34,338 nt of DNA from Candidatus Methanophagales archaeon (GTDB lineage: Archaea; Halobacteriota; Syntropharchaeia; Alkanophagales; Methanospirareceae), in assembly GCA_017883965.1 (NCBI GenBank), contig JAFNKG010000011.1:11191-45528 (forward strand), written 5' to 3'. The position numbers and the translations under genes were made by a program. Under the pieces are notes generated by a model. The model was not told the origin of the DNA and did no database searches. It worked only from the letters and a program-made list of their open reading frames with translations. This document shows, piece by piece, positions 10,036-23,663 of the stretch. Within the stretch, counting starts at the first letter, position 1; the number at the start of each line of letters is the position of its first letter.

Positions 10036-11064
10036 TTATTTTCCGATATTCTCCTCCCGCTTCTTCTTATGCCCGATAAGGAAGCCCAGTTCTTCCGGCT
10101 TTGCCTCACCGAAATCCGCATATCCCTTCTTTTTGATGAAATCTATAATCTTCTTCGCATTCTCTTCGCGCACCACTACCGTTGAAAATCCCGCTGCACT
10201 GCCCACGCTTCCTACACTCGTATCGCTTTCTACCGCAGTAAAGTCCGTGCAAACATTGCATCCGCTTGGAAGTATCTCTTCAAGTGCTCTCACCTTGAAT
10301 TTCACCTCACCATCGGTCATAGTAGCGATGAACTTACCCATTGTTATATCCGTTTTAATGAGCTTCGAGAAATCAACACCTTTCTCTTTTAGATATTTTG
10401 TGAGTTCATCGTAATGGAAATTTTCAGTGCAGAACAAACCCACAACGAGTTTTATCTTCTCCCGGAAAAGAGGGAACTCCTGCTGTAATTTTCTAACTCC
10501 CGAAACCATGCACGGCGTTCCCACAACACCTACACCCTTCTTTGTGAACCTTACCGCTTTCTTCAGCTCAGGAAGCACACGCGCAAACGTATATTTTGTC
10601 CCTCCGAGCGTAGGAATTTCAAGCTGTTCAATGTCTCGCACGTGAAAAATCTCGGTCACCCAATCCTCATCCCTACCAACAAACAAACCACGGTCTATCA
10701 TTCCCATCTCTATCGCGGAAACGATAAGTTCTGTTACCATTGCCCCATCCTGTCCTTTGAACCGCTTCGACTGCCCGGCAATGAATTCTATATAGGAGCC
10801 CAAACCGCTTTTTGGCTCGTAAACAAATCTCGGACATACTTTCACACAGGCACTGCAATCAGTGCATTCCTCTTCATAATTCGGAAATTCCACTCCATCT
10901 ATTGCTATTATTCCATCCACAGGGCATACGCATGCGCATGTCAAACACCGACTACATAACTTTGTATCTATAACCGTGGCTTTCAAATTCTCAAAATACA
11001 ATTTTTCCTTCAATGTTTTTTCGGGAATCTTCACTTCCCATTCCGATTTGCCTATTGCTGCCAT
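10036..11064 (-). CDS. fqoF: F420H2 dehydrogenase subunit F (F420-oxidising input module)
   Basis: 342 residues. Two 4Fe-4S motifs lie near the N-terminus (C37/C40/C43/C47 and C67/C70/C73/C77), followed by a FrhB-like FAD/F420 domain (GQDGAMVTELIVSAIEMG, TLGGTKYTFARVLPELKKAV, GVGVVGTPCMVSGVRKLQ, VGLFCTENFHYDELTKYLKEKGV). FpoF/FqoF subunits take hydride from F420H2 through FAD and pass electrons to the Fe-S chain of the complex-I-like core. It is the last gene of the operon, directly after fqoI. The frame could begin at GTG 11073, but AGGGAG sits 8 nt before ATG 11064, so that ATG is chosen. As a cytosolic protein it may also reduce ferredoxin independently of the complex, as proposed for some FpoF homologues. 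Confidence 0.92.
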   Translation of the reverse strand: MAAIGKSEWEVKIPEKTLKEKLYFENLKATVIDTKLCSRCLTCACVCPVDGIIAIDGVEFPNYEEECTDCSACVKVCPRFVYEPKSGLGSYIEFIAGQSKRFKGQDGAMVTELIVSAIEMGMIDRGLFVGRDEDWVTEIFHVRDIEQLEIPTLGGTKYTFARVLPELKKAVRFTKKGVGVVGTPCMVSGVRKLQQEFPLFREKIKLVVGLFCTENFHYDELTKYLKEKGVDFSKLIKTDITMGKFIATMTDGEVKFKVRALEEILPSGCNVCTDFTAVESDTSVGSVGSAAGFSTVVVREENAKKIIDFIKKKGYADFGEAKPEELGFLIGHKKKREENIGK

Positions 11065-11069
11065 TTTTT

Positions 11070-11798
11070 TCACTCCCTAAAAAGCCTCAATATTTGCATT
11101 GGACACTCCTTAACACACAATCCACACCCTGTGCACTTATCCACATCTATCTTCATCCTCACCATACCATCTTCCTTTAAAGAAGAAACCGCACCACTTT
11201 CGCACATTCCCTCGCAAATCCCGCACCCAAGACAGTTCTCAGGCTCTACGCACAGGCTCACCAGTGGAACCCCTTGCGATGGTGCAACGTCAACAATAAG
11301 CTTGTCTATGCCTTTTGTCCGTTTTAACGAGAGATCCTCTTTGTCTATTACATAGTCCACATATCCTTCATCCTCCCGGATTATCTCCGGCGGTTCAATC
11401 ATTTCTTCTGTAAGCGTGAACATCTCGTCCATGTCTTTATATGCCACGTCATGGATCTTTGTTTGCTTTAATGCTCCTCCAGGACAGGTATCAACGCAGA
11501 AATGGCAGAAAATACATTTACCATAATCTAACGTGGGATAATACCTCCCGCTTGGTGCTTCCTTCATCCAGATCGCATTCGCAGGACATACAAAAGAACA
11601 CTGAAAACAACTTATGCACCTTTCGGGGTCGAAGAGAATATACCCCCTGAAACAATCGGGCATTTTCCTCCGCTCCCGTGGGTACTGTGTAGTTACGTTC
11701 AATGGCATTACTACCTCCTTCGCTGCTGTTGACAGAGCGGATACGTGATGCTTTAGCTTGTCTTTAATGTCGTATTCCGGTGTTGCAACTTTCTTCAT
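11070..11798 (-). CDS. fqoI: F420H2 dehydrogenase subunit I with four 4Fe-4S motifs
   Basis: 242 residues. The NuoI/FpoI core is recognised from RRKMPDCFRGYILFDPERC and two CxxCxxCxxxCP motifs at 61-71 and 95-105. Beyond the usual end of the subunit is a ~90-residue linker and a second ferredoxin pair: CLGCGICEGMC at 189-199 and CTGCGLCVKECP at 222-232. NuoI normally carries only two clusters, so this copy could extend the electron wire toward FqoF or accept electrons from ferredoxin. GGGGGTGA precedes ATG 11798 and that ATG overlaps the fqoH stop by 4 bp (ATGA), which fixes the start despite an open frame further upstream. Confidence 0.92.
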   Translation of the reverse strand: MKKVATPEYDIKDKLKHHVSALSTAAKEVVMPLNVTTQYPRERRKMPDCFRGYILFDPERCISCFQCSFVCPANAIWMKEAPSGRYYPTLDYGKCIFCHFCVDTCPGGALKQTKIHDVAYKDMDEMFTLTEEMIEPPEIIREDEGYVDYVIDKEDLSLKRTKGIDKLIVDVAPSQGVPLVSLCVEPENCLGCGICEGMCESGAVSSLKEDGMVRMKIDVDKCTGCGLCVKECPMQILRLFRE

Positions 11799-12904
11799 AA
11801 TCTCACCCCCATTACTACTATTGACCATCCCAGTGCAATTAATGCTAAGATAAGCATTGCACCCCATCCAATTCTCAAACCCTGGTCAAGCCTGTACCGC
11901 GGATACACTCCACGGAGGTTCGCCATTACCACCAGAACTATCAGGGTTTTTATCACGAACCAGATACCATAGGATAAATCGCCCAAACCCGGAATTACGG
12001 GACCACTACCACCTCCAAGGAATAACATGGTCATGATAGCACTGAGAACGTACATCTTCTCATATCCCATCACATAAGCAAGCCCGAATGCAATACCCGA
12101 ATACTCGACAAAAGGTCCAAAGGATACCTCTTGGTCTGCTTCCGGAATCTCAAAAGGCAGCCGTGCGGTAGCCATCACTGTTGCAATGAAGAAGGTGAGA
12201 GCAGCAAGAGGATTCTGGATAATCCCCCACCACACGCCGCTTTGCTTATCAATTACTCCTACGGTGTTGGATGTTCCATACAGAACGATCATTGCAAGTA
12301 TTACAACAATAAACGGGATTTCGTAAGCGAAATACAGGAACGCCTCTCGAACAGTACCGATAAAAGAGAACCTGTTGTTCGATGCCCAGCCGACACCCAG
12401 AATGAATACCGGCATCAAACTTATCAACGCCACCATTATTTGTAGTGCGTAATCAGTTTGTATCGGAACGAGAGGATTACCAGCAGTCCCCGCATTAATA
12501 AAAAGTAACGGAAGAAGCACGGGGATGAAATAAAGGAACGGGAACTGCAAGAAATAAAGTTTATGGGCGTCCTTGTGTATTATTACCTCCTGAAATAGAA
12601 ATCGTAATGAATCTGCAAGCAATTGGATGATACCTCTCGTGTGTGGTGAAATTTCACGCGGTCCTACCCGCCACTGCATCCGTCCGACCATTTTTCTTTC
12701 AATCCAGGGCAAAATGAGCAGCATGATTCCCATAGTAGCGAAACCCGGGATGAGTATTAATACAAAAAACGGTTTCCACAGTATAAGCGCAATTATATAG
12801 CCTATCACAGGCATTCCGAGCAAGGGATCGAGGAGCGGCTGTAGTAAGGGAATATTCACCTGGTTGTTCATTATCGTGCTTATGAGTGCGTTTATGTCAA
12901 TCAT
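11795..12904 (-). CDS. fqoH: F420H2 dehydrogenase membrane subunit H
   Basis: 369 residues, about eight to nine membrane helices. Typical NuoH segments are IERKMVGRMQWRVGPREISPHTRG followed by LLADSLRFLFQE, ARLPFEIPEADQEVSFGPFVEYSGIAFGL, and the C-terminal LRGVYPRYRLDQ. Subunit H forms the quinone-entry chamber and connects the hydrophilic arm to the membrane arm. The acidic loop between helices 5 and 6 (PEADQE, EYSG) is intact. In the first loop the usual short Gly-rich GPNRVG is changed to GPREISPHTRG. GAGGTGAT lies 7 nt before the ATG, overlapping the end of fqoBCD. Confidence 0.93.
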   Translation of the reverse strand: MIDINALISTIMNNQVNIPLLQPLLDPLLGMPVIGYIIALILWKPFFVLILIPGFATMGIMLLILPWIERKMVGRMQWRVGPREISPHTRGIIQLLADSLRFLFQEVIIHKDAHKLYFLQFPFLYFIPVLLPLLFINAGTAGNPLVPIQTDYALQIMVALISLMPVFILGVGWASNNRFSFIGTVREAFLYFAYEIPFIVVILAMIVLYGTSNTVGVIDKQSGVWWGIIQNPLAALTFFIATVMATARLPFEIPEADQEVSFGPFVEYSGIAFGLAYVMGYEKMYVLSAIMTMLFLGGGSGPVIPGLGDLSYGIWFVIKTLIVLVVMANLRGVYPRYRLDQGLRIGWGAMLILALIALGWSIVVMGVRL

Positions 12905-12915
12905 TTTTCATCACC

Positions 12916-15228
12916 TCACCTATCCGCCTCCGGCGGGAAGTACCCAAAACTACCATAGACTGCCCAGAAGTCCGCATATCGTGCACCTTTGAGAGCTTCC
13001 ATAAATCCTCGCAGGTTCATCCAGCAGGGGGTCATTACCCTCACACGGTACGGAACGTTTGACTCGCCATCACTGATAATCGAAAATAACAACGTGCCAC
13101 GACCTGCCTCGGTAATGGTAGTCCATTCACCCTTTGGAAGAACCAGGTTACCAAAAACTCTGAAGAAATTGCCCTTTATATCACTCGATGCCTCTTTGTA
13201 TTCTCCGAGGACGTCTTCGCTCAAAACTGCTCCTTTTATACCTTTCACGGCATCCACCGCCTGTTTTACAATTCTTACGCTTTGCTTTATCTCCTCCAGC
13301 CTACCCAGGAACCTTCCAAGACAATCTCCATCGTCTCCAGTTGTGACTTCCCAATCGAGCTTATCGTAAACTTCATAAGGTGCAATCTTCCTGATATCGT
13401 AATTTACCCCTGACGCCCTCAGGAACGGTCCTACCATTCCACATCTTATCGCATCCTCCTTCGTCAGCACCCCTACTCCTTTTGCTCTCGCTATCGTCAC
13501 CGGATTGTTCACAAATATATCCTCAAACTTTTTCATCCTTTTATGTATTGCAAAAGTGATGTTATCCGTCAATCCGAGCACGTCATCCGGAATGTCTCTC
13601 CTTATACCACCGGGAACCAGGAAAGAAGGCCCGCTTCTCGACCCGGTCATTCTCATCAGCGCTTCGATTATCATTTCCCGGATTGCCATTGAATACATGA
13701 ATCCCGTCGTATGTCCAAAGAACAGCGAAAATATCGCTGCGTCATAGTAGAATGCTTCTATCCTCGACAGTTCAGCCATTATCGTCCTCAAATACTGTGC
13801 TCTTTCTGGAACTTCAATACCCAGCGCTTTCTCTATCGTCCTGACATACCCTAAGTTCATGTTCACCGGGTCATTTATCGCCAATCGCTCAAATAGCGGA
13901 ATATTCTGGACATATAACTTGGTTTCCGCAAGCTTCTCCATTGACCGGTGTACAAATCCCGGTTCGGGAATGGCATCCACGATTATATCCCCCTTTATCC
14001 TAAAAGTCACTCTGAGATGTCCGCTTCCTGCATGATGCGGTCCTATTGGGACTACAATCTCGTCACTAGCATAGGCATCTTCTACGAATTCTTCTGAGAT
14101 TGGGATATACAGGTCTTTTGGAGGCTCAATGGGAACCATAAACTCAGGAGTTACACTCTTTTCAAAGACGTACCGCTCATCGGGAAGCTTGAATTCTTTC
14201 CTCAATGGTAGGTCCGGTGTGTCCGGAGCAAGAATGAACTTCTTTCCCATTCCTTCGTTTCCGTCGAACAAAACTCCGAAAAATTCATGCATTTCCCGTT
14301 CGGAATAATTAGCGCTTTCCCATAAGGAAGTAAGGCTCTGGATTTTCGCGTCTTTTACCCCCATCTCTGTGAAAACGGTTACAAGAACAGGCATCAGCTC
14401 CTCAACGCTATAACTTGAAACCACGTACTCCACAATAAACTTCCGTTCATGTGGCACTTCTATCACATTCACGCTCTTCACATGGTCCATCTTCATCTGG
14501 TCCCTGAGCTTCCGTGCAACCTCCATCAGGTTCTCTTGTGCTGTTCTGATGGCTATACTGTTCTTGCCGGTAATCGTTATGGATTTATAAAGACCATCCA
14601 ATTCTTTTTTGAGTTTATTCTCCAGCTCTTTCCCCCAATCCACCTCGCTTTTAACGTCCACTTTAATTGCAGGCGTAGGAGCAAATAGCTTTGGCGAAGT
14701 AGGCACCATTCTTTCTTTCAGCCGCTTTTCGAAAGGCAGTTCTACTTTCTTAAATTCTATCGTTTTTCTGTCTTTACCTATTATCTTATCTTGCGTTGCC
14801 CGCACACCACGTAAAAGGGCTTCCGGAGTTACTGGACATCCGGGAATAAAGAAATCTATCGGAACGATATCAGAAGGATGAGTTATATTATAACTGTTCC
14901 AGAATATTCCCCCTCTTTCTCCACATGCTCCTATCACGTTCACAAATTTCGGGTCGGGCATCTGCCCCCACACAAATTGCAAAGCCCTCGCCATCTTCCT
15001 TGTTATCGTCCCCTCTATTATGATATAATTCGACTGCCTCGAAATGCCCATATTCAATGTGCCCAATCGCTCACCATCATAGCCACATGCAAACGCATGG
15101 GCGAGCTCAACGCCACAGCACGAGGTGATGAAGTGGCAGGGCCATAAACTCCACTTCGCAGCCCATTTCTTGAATGGCGAAAGGAGTCCTGACTCGAGGA
15201 AGCGTATATTCGCGTTCTTATATTCCAT
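12916..15228 (-). CDS. fqoBCD: F420H2 dehydrogenase fused subunits B, C and D
   Basis: 770 residues combining three Nuo-type subunits. Residues 1-~155 are NuoB-like, with N2-cluster ligands C37-C38, C102 and C131 (TSCCGVE, GACGERGG, FIPGCPVTPEALL). A charged linker follows. Residues ~200-350 are NuoC-like (YSEREMHEFFGVLFDGNEG...PLRKEFKLP). Residues ~388-770 are NuoD-like (VPIGPHHAGSGHLRV, PEPGFVHRSMEKLAE, PERAQYLRTIMAELSRI, ending ADFWAVYGSFGYFPPEADR). The CxxC pairs that bind NiFe in hydrogenases are absent, so it is a dehydrogenase-type subunit. The frame is continuous without weak points. GAGGTGA lies ~14 nt before the ATG. Functionally it carries the last Fe-S cluster and half the quinone site. 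Confidence 0.93.
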   Translation of the reverse strand: MEYKNANIRFLESGLLSPFKKWAAKWSLWPCHFITSCCGVELAHAFACGYDGERLGTLNMGISRQSNYIIIEGTITRKMARALQFVWGQMPDPKFVNVIGACGERGGIFWNSYNITHPSDIVPIDFFIPGCPVTPEALLRGVRATQDKIIGKDRKTIEFKKVELPFEKRLKERMVPTSPKLFAPTPAIKVDVKSEVDWGKELENKLKKELDGLYKSITITGKNSIAIRTAQENLMEVARKLRDQMKMDHVKSVNVIEVPHERKFIVEYVVSSYSVEELMPVLVTVFTEMGVKDAKIQSLTSLWESANYSEREMHEFFGVLFDGNEGMGKKFILAPDTPDLPLRKEFKLPDERYVFEKSVTPEFMVPIEPPKDLYIPISEEFVEDAYASDEIVVPIGPHHAGSGHLRVTFRIKGDIIVDAIPEPGFVHRSMEKLAETKLYVQNIPLFERLAINDPVNMNLGYVRTIEKALGIEVPERAQYLRTIMAELSRIEAFYYDAAIFSLFFGHTTGFMYSMAIREMIIEALMRMTGSRSGPSFLVPGGIRRDIPDDVLGLTDNITFAIHKRMKKFEDIFVNNPVTIARAKGVGVLTKEDAIRCGMVGPFLRASGVNYDIRKIAPYEVYDKLDWEVTTGDDGDCLGRFLGRLEEIKQSVRIVKQAVDAVKGIKGAVLSEDVLGEYKEASSDIKGNFFRVFGNLVLPKGEWTTITEAGRGTLLFSIISDGESNVPYRVRVMTPCWMNLRGFMEALKGARYADFWAVYGSFGYFPPEADR

Positions 15229-15255
15229 TTTTGTTTTCTCTTCACCTCTCTATCT

Positions 15256-15630
15256 CTATTTAATGTAACTTTTTTCTATTTTTGACTCTGCCATTTCCAG
15301 TGCTATCTTATAACCCACATATAGTGCAGGTAGGAGTAACAAGAAAGAAAGCAGTAAAAGTACCAAAAAGCCTAAACCCGGGTATGCTGAGAATAAGAGC
15401 AGAATGACTACTATTGGTTCTACCGCCATAAACAGGAACATGTACCCGAAATATTGCATGGGAAGCGTATATTTCGGGAATTTCATCGGGGGGTTCCCTG
15501 CTTCCCACCTCCACATTTTTACCTCTGTTGGATCATACCGCGGCAATATTTTTACGAGCACGAGTAGAACTCCATCTGTCAGCACGCAAATAAGTATCAG
15601 GACGCCGATTATCAGAACATTCTCTATCAT
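15256..15630 (-). CDS. fqoA: F420H2 dehydrogenase membrane subunit A
   Basis: 124 residues, three membrane helices. The family pattern is RWEAGNPPMKFPKYTLPMQYFGYMFLFMAVEP, in which the usual YECG reads RWEAG and the usual FDVE reads MAVE. Subunit A packs against H and J next to the quinone channel and its first loop lines the quinone entrance. GGAGG lies 10 nt before ATG 15630, so this start is preferred over the in-frame ATG at 15660, which would overlap the end of fqoN. It lies 19 bp downstream of fqoN and 27 bp upstream of fqoBCD. Confidence 0.9.
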   Translation of the reverse strand: MIENVLIIGVLILICVLTDGVLLVLVKILPRYDPTEVKMWRWEAGNPPMKFPKYTLPMQYFGYMFLFMAVEPIVVILLLFSAYPGLGFLVLLLLSFLLLLPALYVGYKIALEMAESKIEKSYIK

Positions 15631-15649
15631 TTTTGGTTTTCCTCCTCTA

Positions 15650-16936
15650 TCATATTGCAATACCTATCGTTTGAGCAATGACCTCCATACCTTTAAAGAA
15701 CCAATCTGGTAGAAACGTAATCAAGGTTATTATTACTACGGCGATGCAGATGAAGTTTGTGAGATTCGTTTTCCAACCAACGCCGAGTTCTCGTGCGAGC
15801 CTTAGATAATAAGGAATGGATATTGCGGAATTTATAACCATGAGCGCAACCAGCCAGATATACTCGGCTTTGACCAGCGAGAAGAGAATGAATAGTTTGC
15901 CCCAGAATCCCATGAGCGGAGGGAGACCGATGAAAGAGAAAGCAAGCATGTACATCATGGGTGAAAAAGCACCCTCGCTCTTTATCGCAGTGAAGAAACC
16001 TATCTTTCCGGCTGCATTCGCAAACAGCATGAGCAATGCCCCGGTCAATGCGAAAAAGAAGAATTCTGGCTTTATAATCACCACGACACATGCTAAAACA
16101 TACCCCATGTTAGCAACAGTGGAGTAAGCAAGGACTCTCGCGTGCTCTTTTGACGTCAATGCCCCTATATTCCCGGTAAACATGGATACCGTTGCGAGCA
16201 CCGCAGTGAATAAGGTTATTGAAACGGTCAGCGAGTTAGAAGTGCTAATCAATATTCTCAAAGCGACGATAAATGGAACGATTTTTGCGAGAGAGGCGAT
16301 GATGGACATCGGGATCGGGTCTGCACTTGTGAAAACATCCGGCACCCATTCGTGCAACGGTGCAACTCCTACTTCGATACTTAACCCCAGTACAAGCATC
16401 ACATAGCCAAGTATGTAGTAAAAGCGTAAGAGAGGCTGGTCTTCCCACAAGAGAACACCGTCGAACGCGTTTTTTGTATAAGCCAGGATAATAGCACCGA
16501 TTAAAAACAGAACGGTGGCTAAAACCATAAACGTAATATATTTGATACCAACCTCTACGTTTGCTCCTCCTTCCCTAACCATAACTAGGATATACGTTGG
16601 CACGGAAACGAGGACGAACGCTGCCAGAATCATAGCGAGGTCTTGTGTAGTAAAAATGTACAGGGTTGCAAGTGCCATCATCCCCACCAATCCATAGTCT
16701 ATACCCTGAATCACGCTCTTTATCGCTTTAAGCGAAACTAGGTTGATGATACCTATTGCAAAGATAAATGCACTATAATAGATGAGCTGGGGTGCTGAGA
16801 GTGAAACAGCCGAAAACGCAATTATAATTGCCACTACCGCACCATAGAATCCCAACTCGCGGTATTTGAAAGAGAAAACTGAACCAAGCGTCAGGATTAC
16901 TAAAGCCATAAGCATCATCATCGGCAATTCCATCAT
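15650..16936 (-). CDS. fqoN: F420H2 dehydrogenase antiporter-like subunit N
   Basis: 428 residues, ~13-14 membrane helices. Proton-antiporter signatures: GVAPLHEWVPDVFTSADPIPMS, ASLAKIVPFIVALR, ARVLAYSTVANMGYVL, and GLPPLMGFWGKLFIL. K218 (helix 8) and the Lys in GFWGKL (helix 12) are kept, but the helix-7 Lys, seven residues before the His of PLH, is Glu (E188), and the helix-5 Glu is Val (V108). In complex I these residues form the central proton route, so this subunit may translocate ions differently or only serve as a structural relay. ATG 16936 overlaps the fqoL stop by 4 bp, with GGGGTG just upstream. Confidence 0.92.
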   Translation of the reverse strand: MMELPMMMLMALVILTLGSVFSFKYRELGFYGAVVAIIIAFSAVSLSAPQLIYYSAFIFAIGIINLVSLKAIKSVIQGIDYGLVGMMALATLYIFTTQDLAMILAAFVLVSVPTYILVMVREGGANVEVGIKYITFMVLATVLFLIGAIILAYTKNAFDGVLLWEDQPLLRFYYILGYVMLVLGLSIEVGVAPLHEWVPDVFTSADPIPMSIIASLAKIVPFIVALRILISTSNSLTVSITLFTAVLATVSMFTGNIGALTSKEHARVLAYSTVANMGYVLACVVVIIKPEFFFFALTGALLMLFANAAGKIGFFTAIKSEGAFSPMMYMLAFSFIGLPPLMGFWGKLFILFSLVKAEYIWLVALMVINSAISIPYYLRLARELGVGWKTNLTNFICIAVVIITLITFLPDWFFKGMEVIAQTIGIAI

Positions 16937-18846
16937 AGCCCCACCCCCCCTATCGCAGCTAAAATGAGAACAATCATCACAAGACCAAGAACGATGTTGA
17001 TGTACCTACTAAGGTATCCAGTCTGAATAGCCCTGATTCCTTTTGAAATCCCTCCGAATAAACCCGGTATCACCTTCGTATTGAAGAGTCCATCTATCCC
17101 CCTGTTTCCGTACTCCTGGACGATATGAGAGACGAAAAAGCCTGTCTTCGGTAGAATGTAATCGTTAGCAAAGGGGAGATACATCCGGTCGTTGAAGAAA
17201 GTACCGATTTTCGAAAGGGCGCTTATTTGCGGTTTGTACAATGCTACCACATAAGCAATTAATACCGCGAAACCCACAGCAAACGACACTGGTGCGTAGC
17301 CCGCGTGGACAAATTCCGCAGTTTCATCGCTTTTGAAGATAAGGTAAATCAAAACGAAAAGCACGGAGACCATCATCGAGTAGCCGAGTTTCATCAACCC
17401 ACCGCCTTCTAAATGTTCATGGTGCGGTTTCTCGCCTTTTATGAAGTTCAGGCTGAGGAACTTCGCCATAATCCCTGCATAAACCAGAGATGTGAGAATT
17501 AGAAGGATAAGCGGTAAAAAGCCAAGGTCATGAACCAGGTGTTCCATGACTTCATCCATCCCAGACTTCACCCAGTAAGCGGTGAAAGGAGGCATTCCCA
17601 CGAGGAAGGTCGTAGCTACAAAGGTAACAATAAAGGCGGGTTTTATCCGCTTCCCGAACTCGAGACCACCGCATAAGAACCTGCTGTGTGTAGCATGAAT
17701 CAAATGGCCACTTACGAGGAATAAACTCGCTTTTGCAAATGCATGTACAGCCATATACCAGAACGCAACGAGCACGGCGAAATGCCCAACCCAGAAAGAA
17801 GCGGCTGCCGCTGCGAACATCAAACCAATGCTCGACATCGTAGATGATGCAAGCAGAACCTTCCTCTCGAGCATCCCTGATCCTGAAAGCGCGCCATACA
17901 ATCCGGATAGCAAGCCGACGAATAGGACAACGATATAAACAGGCTCAAGCCCTGAGACACCATGCAAGTGCCAGGGTTCAATATACCACGTAAGTTTGAT
18001 GAACACAAAAGCACCGGCGGCTACCATGGTCGCTGAGTGCAAGAGTGCGCTAACGGTCGTTGGACCGGTCATCGCAGTCATAAGCCACTCGCTGAAAGGA
18101 ACCTGCGCCGATTTTGTGAACAGACCCATGAGGATACAAAGCAGAAGAATTACTGTTCCCGCAGTGCCAATAGTTCCAAAAAGCACGCCCCATTCTATCT
18201 CTGATATATTGAGATTGCCTGCTAATACCCATATCGCTGCGATTGCTAAAAACATGGGCACATCGCCAAATCTTATGGTTGAGATTGCCCGCCACCCGCC
18301 AAAGCTCGGTGGCCAGCTCAGTTCAAGTGGTCCTACTTTCCTTTTTGGCATTCCGACGTATGTAATCTCGTCATCGTCCCTGAACCAATGCCCGATCAAA
18401 CCCCACGAAGCTGCTCCAAGTCCTTCCCAGCCTACAAACAGCAGGAACAGGTTATCACTATATACAACGAGGAGCATGGAAGCAGTGAAAAGGTTGAAGA
18501 AGAACCAGTACCACGAGGGTCTGTAATCCCCTTTCATATAGTCCAGGCCGTAAACTGCAATGAAAAACGCTATAACTGCTGTTATAACGCCCATGTATCT
18601 GCTTAAATAATCGCACATGAAAACAAAGTTTATCCCAAGCTCAGGAATCCACGCGTAAGTATATTGCTGGTTTTCAGGGAAAACGAAGAATATATAAAGG
18701 CTCATAACCACCGAAACGAAGATACCAAACACAGAAAGATAAGGCAGTTTCTCCGTCCATCCCTTACTCTTATATGCTAACGCAATGGGAATACTGCTGA
18801 CAACCGGAGCTAACAAAAGCAGCAGAAAAACAATCCATTCATTCAT
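16933..18846 (-). CDS. fqoL: F420H2 dehydrogenase antiporter-like subunit L
   Basis: 637 residues, the usual length for NuoL/FpoL with a C-terminal lateral helix. Conserved proton-path residues are present: E141 in LFVGWEGLGAASWGLIGHW, K245 in LFTKSAQVPFSEWLMTAMTGPTTVSALLHSATMVAAG, and a Lys in PPFTAYWVKSG near helix 12. This is the distal pump of the membrane arm; the long amphipathic helix toward the C-terminus (around 560-600) ties L, M and N together. A strong AGGAGGTG lies 7 nt upstream of the ATG, and the start overlaps the fqoM stop by 4 bp. Confidence 0.94.
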   Translation of the reverse strand: MNEWIVFLLLLLAPVVSSIPIALAYKSKGWTEKLPYLSVFGIFVSVVMSLYIFFVFPENQQYTYAWIPELGINFVFMCDYLSRYMGVITAVIAFFIAVYGLDYMKGDYRPSWYWFFFNLFTASMLLVVYSDNLFLLFVGWEGLGAASWGLIGHWFRDDDEITYVGMPKRKVGPLELSWPPSFGGWRAISTIRFGDVPMFLAIAAIWVLAGNLNISEIEWGVLFGTIGTAGTVILLLCILMGLFTKSAQVPFSEWLMTAMTGPTTVSALLHSATMVAAGAFVFIKLTWYIEPWHLHGVSGLEPVYIVVLFVGLLSGLYGALSGSGMLERKVLLASSTMSSIGLMFAAAAASFWVGHFAVLVAFWYMAVHAFAKASLFLVSGHLIHATHSRFLCGGLEFGKRIKPAFIVTFVATTFLVGMPPFTAYWVKSGMDEVMEHLVHDLGFLPLILLILTSLVYAGIMAKFLSLNFIKGEKPHHEHLEGGGLMKLGYSMMVSVLFVLIYLIFKSDETAEFVHAGYAPVSFAVGFAVLIAYVVALYKPQISALSKIGTFFNDRMYLPFANDYILPKTGFFVSHIVQEYGNRGIDGLFNTKVIPGLFGGISKGIRAIQTGYLSRYINIVLGLVMIVLILAAIGGVGL

Positions 18847-20336
18847 GGCATAACACCTCCTAACCCTAAACCGGGCATTGCGTTAAGCCCTTGAATTAAC
18901 GCTGTTGATAGCGGTGGGAACAGTAACAACACGGAAAGAATACCGATTATAAATAGCGGAACATAAAGGTATCCGCTTATTTCCAGCCTCTTTGTATCTT
19001 TCGGCTTGCCATAAAATACATTTCTTATCGTATAGAAACCGTACCAAACCGAAAGGATGAACATGAATATCACAGCAAGAATAATTGCTAAGCCTCCAGT
19101 CCAGCCAAGGAAAGATGGAGATCCCGATTTGAGAAACGTATCTACAACACCGCGTAATATGAAAAATTCGCCCAACATGCCGACGGTTAATATACCTCCA
19201 AGGTTCAGGAACCCGATCACGGCAGCATTTGAAATTGTCGGGATGGAATCGTGCAACCCGCCCATCTTACTAATGTCACGCAAACCGTGATGAACCGCTA
19301 TAATCCCACCCGCGCTCGAGAACAAGATTGACTTACCAAAAGCATGCGACATATATTGAATAACTAAGCCTATAAGCCCAAAAGGACCAAGACAGAGCGC
19401 TGCCAACATATACCCCATCTGCGATACCGTGGAATAAGCGAGCAGTCTTTTGAAGTCGGTCTGTTTGAAGACCGAAAACCCGGCGTAAATGCTTGAAAGT
19501 ATCGCATAAGCAAGTATATAGTTTCGATAAGTCACAATAAAGGAGTAATCTATTAGAGCAATCCTCAGCAAAACATACCCTGCCAGACCCACGGTTAATG
19601 GGCTTAGTAATGCACTCACCGGTGTAGGCGCTTCTGCATGAGCCCATGGAAGCCATACATGAGGTCCCAGGACGGGGAGCTCTATTACCATACCTACGAA
19701 GATAAACGCCCATGCAATCTTTCCGACCGTAGTTATTACTTTGATGTTTTCATCAGTGCTAAAAAGCGCAAGCGTGTCATTATTAATACCAATTATGAGG
19801 AACCCTGCCAGCGTAAGAACACCTGCAATTAAACTCCAGATCAGGTATAATTGACCCACCCACCTCCTGTTACCATACCCATAGAAGTAAATGAGGAGGA
19901 AAGCGGTAATCAGTGCGATTTCAAGGAAAACATACAGGAGAATGAGGTTTCCACTGTAAACGAGCCACAACATCGAAGCGGCATAGAGGTCGTATAAGAA
20001 TATATATTTTCTGAACTCTCCTTCTACACTGAGCTCCATCTCCTCAAACCTGTGCTTCATGTAGGGTAGAGCGAAAAGCGCGACCATTGCGGAAACGATA
20101 CAAATAGTAAGTCCAAACGCGTGTGATATAAAGTCAAAGTTAAGGGAAATCTCACCTATTGGCGGCGAAAACGTCGTTAGATGGATATCCGCACAGCCAT
20201 TGAAAATACAGTAGAGTATAGCAAAAAAAGGGAGCATAAAGGACAATGATGAAAGATACGTTGCTTTCTTGGGTGCTAAAAGCGGTGCTAAACATGCTAC
20301 AAGTAAGGGTAAGAGCAGGAAGTAAAGCATCATCAT
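18843..20336 (-). CDS. fqoM: F420H2 dehydrogenase antiporter-like subunit M
   Basis: 497 residues, ~14 membrane helices. Family segments are LLYVFLEIALI (E139, the helix-5 Glu), VIELPVLGPHVWLPWAHAEAPTPVSALLSPL, FKRLLAYSTVSQMGYML, and GMLGEFFILRG (helix-12 Glu). The position of the key helix-7 Lys, seven residues before the His of GPHVW, is occupied by E219, and the helix-8 Lys is replaced by Gly (G250). It is otherwise an intact middle antiporter-like subunit. Three ATGs in a row begin the gene; GGTGAT lies 5 nt before the first, which overlaps the fqoK stop by 4 bp. Confidence 0.92.
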   Translation of the reverse strand: MMMLYFLLLPLLVACLAPLLAPKKATYLSSLSFMLPFFAILYCIFNGCADIHLTTFSPPIGEISLNFDFISHAFGLTICIVSAMVALFALPYMKHRFEEMELSVEGEFRKYIFLYDLYAASMLWLVYSGNLILLYVFLEIALITAFLLIYFYGYGNRRWVGQLYLIWSLIAGVLTLAGFLIIGINNDTLALFSTDENIKVITTVGKIAWAFIFVGMVIELPVLGPHVWLPWAHAEAPTPVSALLSPLTVGLAGYVLLRIALIDYSFIVTYRNYILAYAILSSIYAGFSVFKQTDFKRLLAYSTVSQMGYMLAALCLGPFGLIGLVIQYMSHAFGKSILFSSAGGIIAVHHGLRDISKMGGLHDSIPTISNAAVIGFLNLGGILTVGMLGEFFILRGVVDTFLKSGSPSFLGWTGGLAIILAVIFMFILSVWYGFYTIRNVFYGKPKDTKRLEISGYLYVPLFIIGILSVLLLFPPLSTALIQGLNAMPGLGLGGVMP

Positions 20337-20659
20337 ACTCTATCACCCCCTATGGTAATCGCACTTGTGTGAATATCCTTCTTCTGTTTGTCAAGTATGG
20401 TAATCGCCGAGATTAAAACTAAAAGTTCGCCGCTGCTCGTGAAAATCGTGATGATTGCGATACCGAATGCGGTATTAGCAAGGAAAGCAACAGAGAAGAG
20501 CGGGATCAAAGCCATAAACACGGCACCAAACATCAGCTCCAGTGATATAAGAAGCCGGATTACATCTTTACTTGAAATCGCTGCAAGGTATCCTACGAGT
20601 AGGATTGCAAATGATGTGGCATAGATTACCGATACACTCATTATATCAATTGCGGGCAT
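20333..20659 (-). CDS. fqoK: F420H2 dehydrogenase membrane subunit K
   Basis: 108 residues, three membrane helices. The two conserved membrane Glu residues of NuoK are present: E41 in LLISLELMFGA and E78 in SSGELLVLISA. These contribute to the proton path between subunits J and N. The hydrophilic C-terminal tail is short. The ATG directly abuts the TGA of fqoJ, with GGAG 6 nt before it inside fqoJ, indicating translational coupling. Confidence 0.9.
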   Translation of the reverse strand: MPAIDIMSVSVIYATSFAILLVGYLAAISSKDVIRLLISLELMFGAVFMALIPLFSVAFLANTAFGIAIITIFTSSGELLVLISAITILDKQKKDIHTSAITIGGDRV

Positions 20660-21148
20660 TCAGCTCTCCGTCCCCCCTATCCCTATTTTTAAGACCGATA
20701 ACAGCAGAAGCACAACGAGCGACATCAGAAATAAGATGAGCAAAAGGGGTTCAGTAATGGGTTCAGTAGCGGATATAAAATTTATAAGTTCAAATTCAAA
20801 CGTGCTGGAATATGCAGATTGCGGAGTGAGCCTGTAAATGGAGAAGCCTATGACAAAAGCGGTTATAACTACCGGCAGCGTCCATACCCATGAAAACTGT
20901 CTTTCCGGGGCTGCTCTATACGTTGCCGCAAGCGCCACTGTTACTATACCAATCGCACCCACGAATATAAACACGATTAAAACGAAAACCGGCTGTAAGT
21001 CAAAAAGGGCATAAACGCTTGCTACAAAAACCAATGTTATAGACATGAACAGCGATGCGTAAAAATTGTCCTTGCTGAGCAAAACCCCTAAGGAGAATAA
21101 CACGGCTGCCCCCACAAGGGCTGACAACAGCAACATTTCCACACTCAT
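20660..21148 (-). CDS. fqoJ: F420H2 dehydrogenase membrane subunit J
   Basis: 162 residues, five predicted membrane helices. The helix-3 segment VLIVFIFVGAIGIVTVALAATY resembles the Gly-rich helix of NuoJ (usual form YAGAIxVLFLF) that changes between alpha and pi-bulge forms during turnover in complex I. This is the first gene of the operon, which continues without real gaps to fqoF. There is no Shine-Dalgarno before ATG 21148; a TATA-like element centred ~27 bp upstream suggests a leaderless transcript start for the whole operon. Confidence 0.88.
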   Translation of the reverse strand: MSVEMLLLSALVGAAVLFSLGVLLSKDNFYASLFMSITLVFVASVYALFDLQPVFVLIVFIFVGAIGIVTVALAATYRAAPERQFSWVWTLPVVITAFVIGFSIYRLTPQSAYSSTFEFELINFISATEPITEPLLLILFLMSLVVLLLLSVLKIGIGGTES

Positions 21149-21169
21149 GGATTCAAAAATCTAAACACT

Positions 21170-21188
21170 CAGTTAAAAAACTTTCGGT
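21170..21188 (-). promoter_or_regulatory. BRE/TATA-like promoter of the fqo operon
   Basis: The minus-strand sequence ACCGAAAGTTTTTTAACTG reads as a purine-rich BRE (CGAAAG) followed by a T/A-rich TATA element, centred about 27 bp before the fqoJ ATG. A very similar sequence, ACCGTAAAGTTTTAAAGC, lies about 32 bp upstream of the DUF39-CBS gene. Confidence 0.5.
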
Positions 21189-21218
21189 TTTTTCGTGAGG
21201 TTACTTCACTCTTCACTC

Positions 21219-22208
21219 TCAAACTCGATTTTCTATTCTTTCCGCAGTTAAGTCAGTAATGAGCTGGAGTTTTGACTTCGCTTCCGAATCTTCAAGCCCT
21301 GCAATACACTTTTTCGCATTATTTACGAGTTCATTAGAAAGCTGAAGCGCGTAGTCAATCGAGCCGGAATTTACAAAAATTTCCCGCACTCTATCAATAT
21401 CAAAACCGTCAAACTCTCTTTTCCTTGTCAGTATCCCTTTTATATATTCCCTTTCTGAAGGTTTTGAATGGTTTAATGCGTGAATGACAAGAATAGTTCT
21501 CTCTCCATTTTTAATGTCCAATCCAACTGGCTTTCCTGTTCTCGCCGGGTCGCCGCAAATATCTAAAATATCATCCTGAATCTGGAACGCAATCCCTAAA
21601 TTTTTACCATAGTTACGAAGCCCCTCGATTTCTACTTCGCTTCCACCGCCAAGCACGGCACCTGCTTCTGTGCTCGCCATAAATGTAGAAGCAGTTTTCA
21701 GTTCCGCTACCTCCATGTAAGATTGCTCTGTCGCCTCCTGTAAGGTTCTTAACGTGAACTCCAGATACTGTCCCATAGCGATGTCAGAAACAGCACTCGA
21801 GACCAAACCCACGACTTCCGGCACTCCGCACCTTGAAAGCATCTCGCAGGAAAGCCCAAACAAGAAATCACCGATGACTATCGCCTTCTTTTCGCCATAC
21901 CTCGCAGGATTAGAAGGGTTTCTCCTTCGTATGTGATTCTCATCTATAATATCATCATGAACCAGAGAAGCGTTATGGAGTAGTTCAATCGCTATTGCAG
22001 TGAACAAAGCTTTTTCCCGTGAGCCACCAACCGCCTCCGCGGATAGAAGGCATATAATAGGACGCAGTCGCTTCCCACCTGTATCTTTTATATAGTTCAG
22101 CGCATCGTATAAAATCTTATTTGAGCACCCCTGCATCTTTTGCTCGATAACCTCCCCCATCTTGCAGTTGAAGTACTGCACCTCTTCTTGAAACTCCTTC
22201 TCTTTCAT
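21219..22208 (-). CDS. polyprenyl diphosphate synthase (long-chain type likely)
   Basis: 329 residues from ATG 22208; an in-frame TTG 15 bp upstream is less likely. Trans-prenyltransferase motifs: GGKRLRP, first Asp-rich motif SLVHDDIIDE (D85-D89), and second FQIQDDILDICGD (D212-D216). The enzyme condenses isopentenyl diphosphate onto an allylic primer. The residue five before the first Asp is Ala (NASLVHDD), as in long-chain synthases for quinone tails, whereas farnesyl/geranylgeranyl synthases usually have an aromatic residue there. It could still be the geranylgeranyl synthase for archaeal lipids. It ends 70 bp upstream of fqoJ on the same strand, so a link to quinone synthesis is an attractive inference. 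Confidence 0.88.
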   Translation of the reverse strand: MKEKEFQEEVQYFNCKMGEVIEQKMQGCSNKILYDALNYIKDTGGKRLRPIICLLSAEAVGGSREKALFTAIAIELLHNASLVHDDIIDENHIRRRNPSNPARYGEKKAIVIGDFLFGLSCEMLSRCGVPEVVGLVSSAVSDIAMGQYLEFTLRTLQEATEQSYMEVAELKTASTFMASTEAGAVLGGGSEVEIEGLRNYGKNLGIAFQIQDDILDICGDPARTGKPVGLDIKNGERTILVIHALNHSKPSEREYIKGILTRKREFDGFDIDRVREIFVNSGSIDYALQLSNELVNNAKKCIAGLEDSEAKSKLQLITDLTAERIENRV

Positions 22209-22393
22209 TTCAATTACATTCAATTACAATTTCCATTCCATATTAATAAAACCCTCTTATAAAAAGACACCTTATTTGTATGCCATAATACTACCAAACC
22301 CTGAGGTATGGCAATAGCTAATAGAATAGGCAACATACAGAATTTTCGAGTAGCTGGATAACTTAATACCGCATCCACTACCTGCACTGGACT
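22209..22393. other. AT-rich intergenic stretch, no gene seen
   Basis: Together with the small frame at 22394-22513 this fills the 375-bp gap between the prenyl synthase and the radical SAM gene. It contains TATA-like sequences on the minus strand (TTTTATAAG near 22260; TTTATTAATATGG near 22243) that could start the prenyl synthase transcript. No RNA gene or repeat is visible. Confidence 0.4.
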
Positions 22394-22583: not shown

Positions 22584-23663
22584 TTACTCGAAGTCCGGCA
22601 ACGCCGAACAAGCCCGGCAACGCACACACCCAGCCTTATTCTTACTCCAGCTCACTCCGTTATCATGCAATATCCCTGCTACCTCCTCGTATATGTAACG
22701 CATCCTATCAGGGCTTGGTGGTTTCTCATTTTCCATATCAGACCCGGGTATAGGACGCAGAGGCACGATGAACGGATAAACGCCAAGTTCGGCTAACATC
22801 CTGCTACCCTCTATGATAGATTCATCGCTCTCTCCCATTCCTGCAATTACGTAACTGCTGACTTGACAATCGCCGAAAATCTCCACGCTTCGCTTCCACG
22901 CTTCTATGTATTCCTGAAGCGGTATATCAGCCTTGCATAAAGCCACTTCTTCCAGCACTTCTCTGTCAAAGCTTTCCACATGGATTCCCACGGTATCCAC
23001 AGCATCATAAAGAACGTCTATCATACTGAACTCCTCCGGCGGTTCAAACTGAGCATGGATAGGCAATCCCGTTGCTTCTTTTATCGCTCTTGCAGTTTCC
23101 GCAAGGTGATTTATACCCTTGTCGGGAGTGGATGTCGTGCCCGTGGTAAGCGTCACGTGCTTCACGTGGTCCAATTTCTTCGCCATGAGTGCCACTTCTG
23201 CAAGTTGTTCCGGCTTCTTCTTCGCTATTGTCGCACCACTTTTCAGCGAGAGTTCGATTGCACAGAACTTACACCTCTTCGGCGTGTTCCAGTACACGCA
23301 AGTTTGTATCGTTGTAGTGGCTAAGCAATTACTTCCATGCAGAAGTGCGATTTTATTATATGGTATGCCATCTTCAGTCCTTAACTCCTGAAACTTTGCA
23401 TGCGGGAATCTCACTTGAGTAATTCGCTCATCAGCACTCTTGATTACATATTTTCCTTCCTCTTTTTCTACTTCAATGCTATAAGGCGACATAGAAACGA
23501 ACCAGCTCTGTGTTGGAACGTTTGCTACCGTATTGCCGAAGAGGAACATCCCGCCAGCGGCAGGACCCGCACCACCTTTCCTGCCTTTATTCACGCCTGC
23601 AAAAGAGACTTGTGCGCCCAAGCATAGCAACTCCACCTTCAAATCCTTAGTTTCCATTGCCAT
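22584..23663 (-). CDS. radical SAM protein with unusual cluster spacing (MSMEG_0568-like)
   Basis: 359 residues. The likely SAM cluster motif is C122-x8-C131-x2-C134 (TCVYWNTPKRCKFCAI), not the canonical Cx3Cx2C. Radical SAM barrel elements follow: HVTLTTGTTSTPDKG, LPIHAQFEPPE, DTVGIHVESFDREVLE, SSYVIAGMGESDESI, VPLRPIPGSDM. The C-terminus carries a second Cys set, CVRCRACS (C346, C349, C352), perhaps for an auxiliary cluster. This fits the group named MSMEG_0568-family radical SAM proteins; reaction unknown. The gene overlaps the 3' end of the DUF39-CBS gene by 25 bp (19 bp if the second ATG at 23657, better spaced from AGGAAG, is used), so they are translationally coupled. Confidence 0.82.
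   Translation of the reverse strand: MAMETKDLKVELLCLGAQVSFAGVNKGRKGGAGPAAGGMFLFGNTVANVPTQSWFVSMSPYSIEVEKEEGKYVIKSADERITQVRFPHAKFQELRTEDGIPYNKIALLHGSNCLATTTIQTCVYWNTPKRCKFCAIELSLKSGATIAKKKPEQLAEVALMAKKLDHVKHVTLTTGTTSTPDKGINHLAETARAIKEATGLPIHAQFEPPEEFSMIDVLYDAVDTVGIHVESFDREVLEEVALCKADIPLQEYIEAWKRSVEIFGDCQVSSYVIAGMGESDESIIEGSRMLAELGVYPFIVPLRPIPGSDMENEKPPSPDRMRYIYEEVAGILHDNGVSWSKNKAGCVRCRACSALPDFE

Follow-up and report, generated by a model that had tools for sequence, protein, structure and literature searches.

The gene directly upstream of fqoJ in the ANME-1 genome that we studied encodes a polyprenyl diphosphate synthase, which we call PS1. Taking all of the evidence together, the best explanation is that PS1 is the side-chain synthase of a membrane electron carrier, and we consider this likely. 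PS1 would start from a short allylic diphosphate, either FPP or GGPP, and add IPP until the chain exceeds C20; we propose this since helix D has Ala, not an aromatic stopper, at -5. A UbiA-type prenyltransferase would then move the product onto the ring of the electron carrier that is reduced by Fqo in the membrane. For this genome, menaquinone from the futalosine pathway is the most likely carrier. The GGPP for lipids would be supplied by a second synthase, PS2, which has Phe at -5. We predict that most transcription of PS1 starts at a promoter of its own, and that its place before fqoJ reflects an occasional linkage, not a fixed operon.

The window (the whole stretch of 34,338 nucleotides that was analyzed, to which the coordinates below refer) is from contig C13 of a 2.48 Mb MAG of ANME-1 (Methanophagales). 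The open frame of PS1 runs from a TTG at 22223 to 21219 on the minus strand. Because similarity to orthologs begins at 22208, we prefer the ATG at that position as the start, which gives a protein of 329 amino acids, instead of 334 from the TTG. The nearest named relative of PS1 is a gene in a Methanophagales (ANME-1) MAG, at 94% identity. PS1 belongs to PF00348 (polyprenyl_synt in Pfam): it is well over the cutoff (E = 6.5e-70; 235.6 bits, cutoff 27), and both the FARM (DDIID) and the SARM (DDILD) are present. The FARM region reads HNASLVHDDIID. The sequence-only reading had placed an Ala five residues before DDIID, and had reported that fqoJ and PS1 span 20660-22208 and are 70 bp apart on the same strand; the sequence bears this out (the gap is 21149-21218).

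Features of the PS1 and fqo region (window coordinates)
Feature	Position	Strand	Basis or remark
PS1, all-E medium/long-chain polyprenyl diphosphate synthase	21219..22208	-	PF00348, orthologs, separate clade
PS1 FARM, DDIID	21942..21956	-	sequence; without the two-residue insertion
PS1 Ala codon at -5 of FARM, chain-length position	21969..21971	-	invariant in 44/44 orthologs
PS1 SARM, DDILD	21561..21575	-	sequence
Probable PS1 promoter, TTTTTATAAG...TTTTATTAATA	22242..22265	-	about 45 nt before ATG
Probable fqoJ promoter, GAAAAAACCGAAAGTTTTTTAA, BRE/TATA-like	21173..21194	-	TATA center about 28 nt before fqoJ ATG
fqoJ, NuoJ-like membrane subunit	20660..21148	-	PF00499, E = 1.6e-4, below gathering score; conserved gene order
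Rest of fqo cluster: K M L N A BCD(fused) H I F	10036..20659	-	Pfam complex-I families, FrhB_FdhB

To place PS1 in a chain-length class, we rely mainly on the -5 residue. All 44 full-length orthologs of PS1, from 44 genomes of ANME-1 and its sister family, have Ala there. Since Phe is found instead in the paralog that this genome encodes and in almost all of the GGPP-type synthases that we compared, this Ala is not a matter of chance. In direct alignments, it corresponds to Ala79 of the E. coli octaprenyl-PP synthase and to a Tyr of the Pyrococcus GGPP synthase (PDB 1wy0), and the -5 residue of the deca- and octaprenyl synthases in the alignments is Ala. Among the enzymes of our comparison set, Ala(-5) is also found in E. 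coli IspB, Acinetobacter SdsA, and every GFPS-like archaeal protein.

Published criteria distinguish several types of GGPP synthases (PMC9385802). Type I is aromatic at the -5 position, where PS1 has Ala; the FARM insertion that marks type II is missing from PS1; and instead of the His of type III, two residues before the G(Q/E) motif, PS1 has Ala (IAMGQ). These criteria, which consider sequence motifs, assign PS1 to none of the three types of GGPP synthases. It does have what is expected of medium- or long-chain all-E synthases, namely a small residue at -5 without the type II insertion. No named chain-length subfamily takes in PS1, as it misses every curated cutoff: for the long-chain equivalogs, it scores 192 of 383 bits (solanesyl), 176 of 412 (octaprenyl), and 166 of 457 (heptaprenyl II), and for the Methanosarcina-type geranylfarnesyl diphosphate synthase (NF040627), it scores 147.9 bits with a cutoff of 600. 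The product of PS1 is probably C25-C45.

The sequence-only reading had suggested searching the same genome for a second prenyl synthase with an aromatic residue and for menaquinone genes, and both were found. PS2 (contig C74, L002) has Phe(-5), which supports its assignment as a putative lipid-type GGPP enzyme that is distinct from the long-chain-type PS1. That reading would have been abandoned if PS1 were the sole prenyl synthase; because PS2 is present, it is not. In other ANME-1, the counterparts of PS2 carry Phe, Tyr, or Ser at -5, and nearly all of the ANME-1 genomes that we examined encode a synthase apart from PS1, in most cases with an aromatic residue at this position. These second synthases are of two non-orthologous types (L158, L159, L157, and L160 versus L153): one has HNFSLVHDDIED, and the other has MQS(Y/S)LL(I/V)HDDIMD and lies on a long branch. 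As for menaquinone, the window's genome encodes mqnE-mqnA-mqnC on contig C23 and mqnD on contig C39. It also encodes one UbiD and six UbiA proteins; we looked for the UbiA partner of PS1 through gene neighborhoods and found none. The radical SAM gene at 22584-23663, just upstream of PS1 in the window's genus, was considered as MqnC or MqnE and dropped, as it belongs to the MSMEG_0568 family (375 bits, cutoff 304).

Of 51 genomes of the ANME-1 family, 45 contain PS1, among them all 15 with a completeness of at least 90%. It is missing from six genomes, fewer than the 8.4 that incompleteness would predict. In a maximum-likelihood tree, the PS1 sequences group together as a clade of their own, with support of 100/100 when the divergent G054 row is set aside. 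Both the clade of GFPS-like long-chain synthases (100/100) and the clade with the Phe(-5) GGPP synthases (100/99) exclude it. When we searched with the GFPS model, no ANME-1 gene scored above PS1 itself, whereas the Syntrophoarchaeum-like genomes G056 and G057, from the same class, contain a GFPS-like gene. Because of this distribution, and because PS1 lies outside the GFPS-like clade, ANME-1 appears to use a non-orthologous enzyme for the side-chain task that the GFPS-like clade would perform in related archaea. We view PS1 as an ordinary member of its family in an informative place: it is a conserved, probable side-chain synthase of ANME-1.

PS1 is not restricted to genomes that can make menaquinone. 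Seven of the family genomes have neither MqnA/D nor MqnC, and all seven keep PS1. In G020 (L249, contig C121, 581-12809), the order is a 206-amino-acid gene, an ABC cassette, mqnE-A-C, mqnD, and an AhbD-like radical SAM gene. G003 (L245, C71, 9243-13554) and G021 (L246, C63) have the same flanks on a single contig with no mqn between them, and in G018 (L244, C9), the part from the ABC cassette to the radical SAM gene can be read on a single contig, again with no mqn. Since a single contig spans the site in these three genomes, incompleteness is ruled out there as the cause; it may explain the missing mqn genes in G006, G014, G015, and G017. In G003 and G018, the mqn-free site is combined with a PS1 gene next to fqo. 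Because PS1 is kept in at least three ANME-1 genomes whose mqn-free site is clean, it is not bound to the de novo synthesis of menaquinone, and menaquinone cannot be its sole possible use. For the same reason, the presence of mqn genes in one genome cannot be extended to menaquinone in all ANME-1.

The carrier of the mqn-free ANME-1 may derive from an imported precursor, or it may be a different compound. At the mqn-free site, an NMT1-type ABC importer cassette is left between the flanking genes, and it is possible that this cassette imports a quinone precursor. It is not a strict replacement for mqn, as it is also present in 15 of the 44 family genomes that carry mqn (Fisher p = 0.10). A more elaborate scenario is that some ANME-1 lineages lost de novo menaquinone synthesis and yet run Fqo on a prenylated carrier that is tailed by PS1, with a ring that is either imported as a precursor, perhaps via the NMT1-type importer, or is not menaquinone. 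We think that this is quite improbable. If it is true, then such methane oxidizers would depend on a partner for their electron carrier.

PS1 is directly upstream of fqoJ, on the same strand, in four genomes from three genera (G000, G023, G003, and G018), and it is 1.4-6.8 kb from fqo in G030, G031, G027, and a member of the sister family (G002), in which ahb/nirJ-type heme radical SAM genes are also near PS1. Some proximity to fqo does recur in other genera, but direct adjacency is confined to a minority of ANME-1. In most other ANME-1 genomes, PS1 adjoins ccmE (with ccmC/A/B-like genes), topoisomerase I, or hisA. The arrangement directly downstream of ccmE and the ccmC/A/B-like genes is seen in several genera (L006 7344-10007, L171, L172, L174, and L181), which is a link to cytochrome c maturation. 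From these gene orders, the neighborhood of PS1 is often respiratory and is not fixed. We rejected the adjacency of PS1 and fqo as a strong argument: it is absent from ten named ANME-1 loci, it is partly restored by G003, G018, and the g8 genomes, and it is weakened by the separate promoter-like elements described below. Nor is PS1 strictly tied to Fqo, since G008 (93% complete) has PS1 and no match to FqoH; a match to FqoH is likewise lacking from G010 and G013, of the same genus, despite mqn genes and PS1 in all three.

The window has some other features of note. FqoB, FqoC, and FqoD are a single fused protein of 770 amino acids (12916-15228). In a comparison of 10036-21148 with L003 9094-19027, from the same genus, the flanking genes are 89-97% identical and the Fqo subunits are just 59-86% identical, while the window's FqoH is 93% identical to that of G051, which is from another genus. 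From these identities, the fqo operon looks to have been partly replaced through exchange within ANME-1. At 912-2798, one protein combines a lamin-tail domain with two phospholipase-D-like domains.

Could PS1 instead be a GGPP (C20) synthase for membrane lipids, with a residue other than Ala(-5) as the stopper? Its best match in the PDB, and so its best solved relative, is the Pyrococcus GGPP synthase 1wy0 (E = 7e-54), and its top-scoring NCBIfam model is the short-chain IdsA, although at 262 bits it is far below the cutoff of 468. Small residues at -5 do occur in type II and type III GGPP synthases (PMC9385802), but PS1 lacks the hallmarks of both. Given that a separate synthase is available in nearly all of these genomes and that PS1 is not in the Phe(-5) clade, a C20 product for lipids is very unlikely. 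More serious is the question of which carrier receives the chain. The sequence-only reading had taken Ala(-5) to support quinone over methanophenazine. This does not follow: the geranylfarnesyl synthase of Methanosarcina (MM_0789; model NF040627) is the C25 enzyme of methanophenazine (PMC3017947), and L190, a homolog that is above the curated cutoff for this model, also has Ala(-5). This shared residue would fit a PS1 product of C25, or of similar length, that goes to methanophenazine or to some other lipid carrier that is not a quinone, rather than to menaquinone. The persistence of PS1 and Fqo in ANME-1 genomes whose mqn-free site is clean would fit this too, as would the phzF-like domains of ANME-1, whose membrane carrier was left undecided (Timmers 2017; PMC5244752). 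We nevertheless consider a non-quinone carrier rather unlikely: the window's genome encodes mqnE-A-C and mqnD, and its Fqo is nearer to Nuo than to Fpo (the NuoH and NuoD models score higher than FpoH and FpoD). PS1 is also outside the GFPS clade and far below the GFPS cutoff. Quinone is favored on those other grounds, that is, by the mqn genes, UbiD, and the Nuo-like scores of Fqo; it was already proposed for ANME-1 from Fqo and the futalosine genes (PMC9012536). The quinone claim is plausible from this other evidence, and the signature and position of PS1 do not show it.

The remaining alternative concerns transcription. The sequence-only reading implied a transcript shared by PS1 and fqo, and the short gap, the common strand, and the recurring adjacency or proximity would fit a single operon, dedicated to Fqo, in which PS1 is co-transcribed with fqoJ-F. 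However, PS1 and fqoJ are each preceded by an element that looks like an archaeal promoter. A TTTATAA-type element occurs in the same place before PS1 in most of 22 genomes with differing upstream genes. Similarly, GAAAGYTTTTTA is found right before fqoJ in nine of nine genomes, whatever lies upstream (in five of them, PS1 is not the neighbor), and its only exact match in the whole window is the one before fqoJ. As these are two separate, conserved promoter-like elements, a dedicated PS1-fqo operon is unlikely, and with PS1 beside unrelated genes in most ANME-1, we hold co-transcription to be highly doubtful. We do not count PS1 as a member of the fqo operon.

If PS1 is the side-chain synthase, as we favor, then the length of its product would give the expected mass of the membrane carrier of ANME-1. 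Also, the side-chain synthase of ANME-1 would be of a different lineage from those of its Syntrophoarchaeum-like and Methanosarcina-like relatives. Three known systems are closest. PS1 resembles E. coli IspB (PDB 3wjk/5ze6) and other bacterial quinone side-chain synthases, as all of these are all-E enzymes with Ala(-5) (Ala79 in IspB), the FARM, and the SARM; it is about 32-34% identical to them over nearly the whole length, but it is in a separate clade in the tree and has an archaeal host. With the geranylfarnesyl diphosphate synthase of Methanosarcina, PS1 shares Ala(-5) and a presumed role in making the side chain of a membrane electron carrier, but not the model score or the clade. With the archaeal type I GGPP synthases, such as Pyrococcus 1wy0 and PS2, it shares the family and its motifs, and differs in having Ala at -5 where theirs is aromatic.
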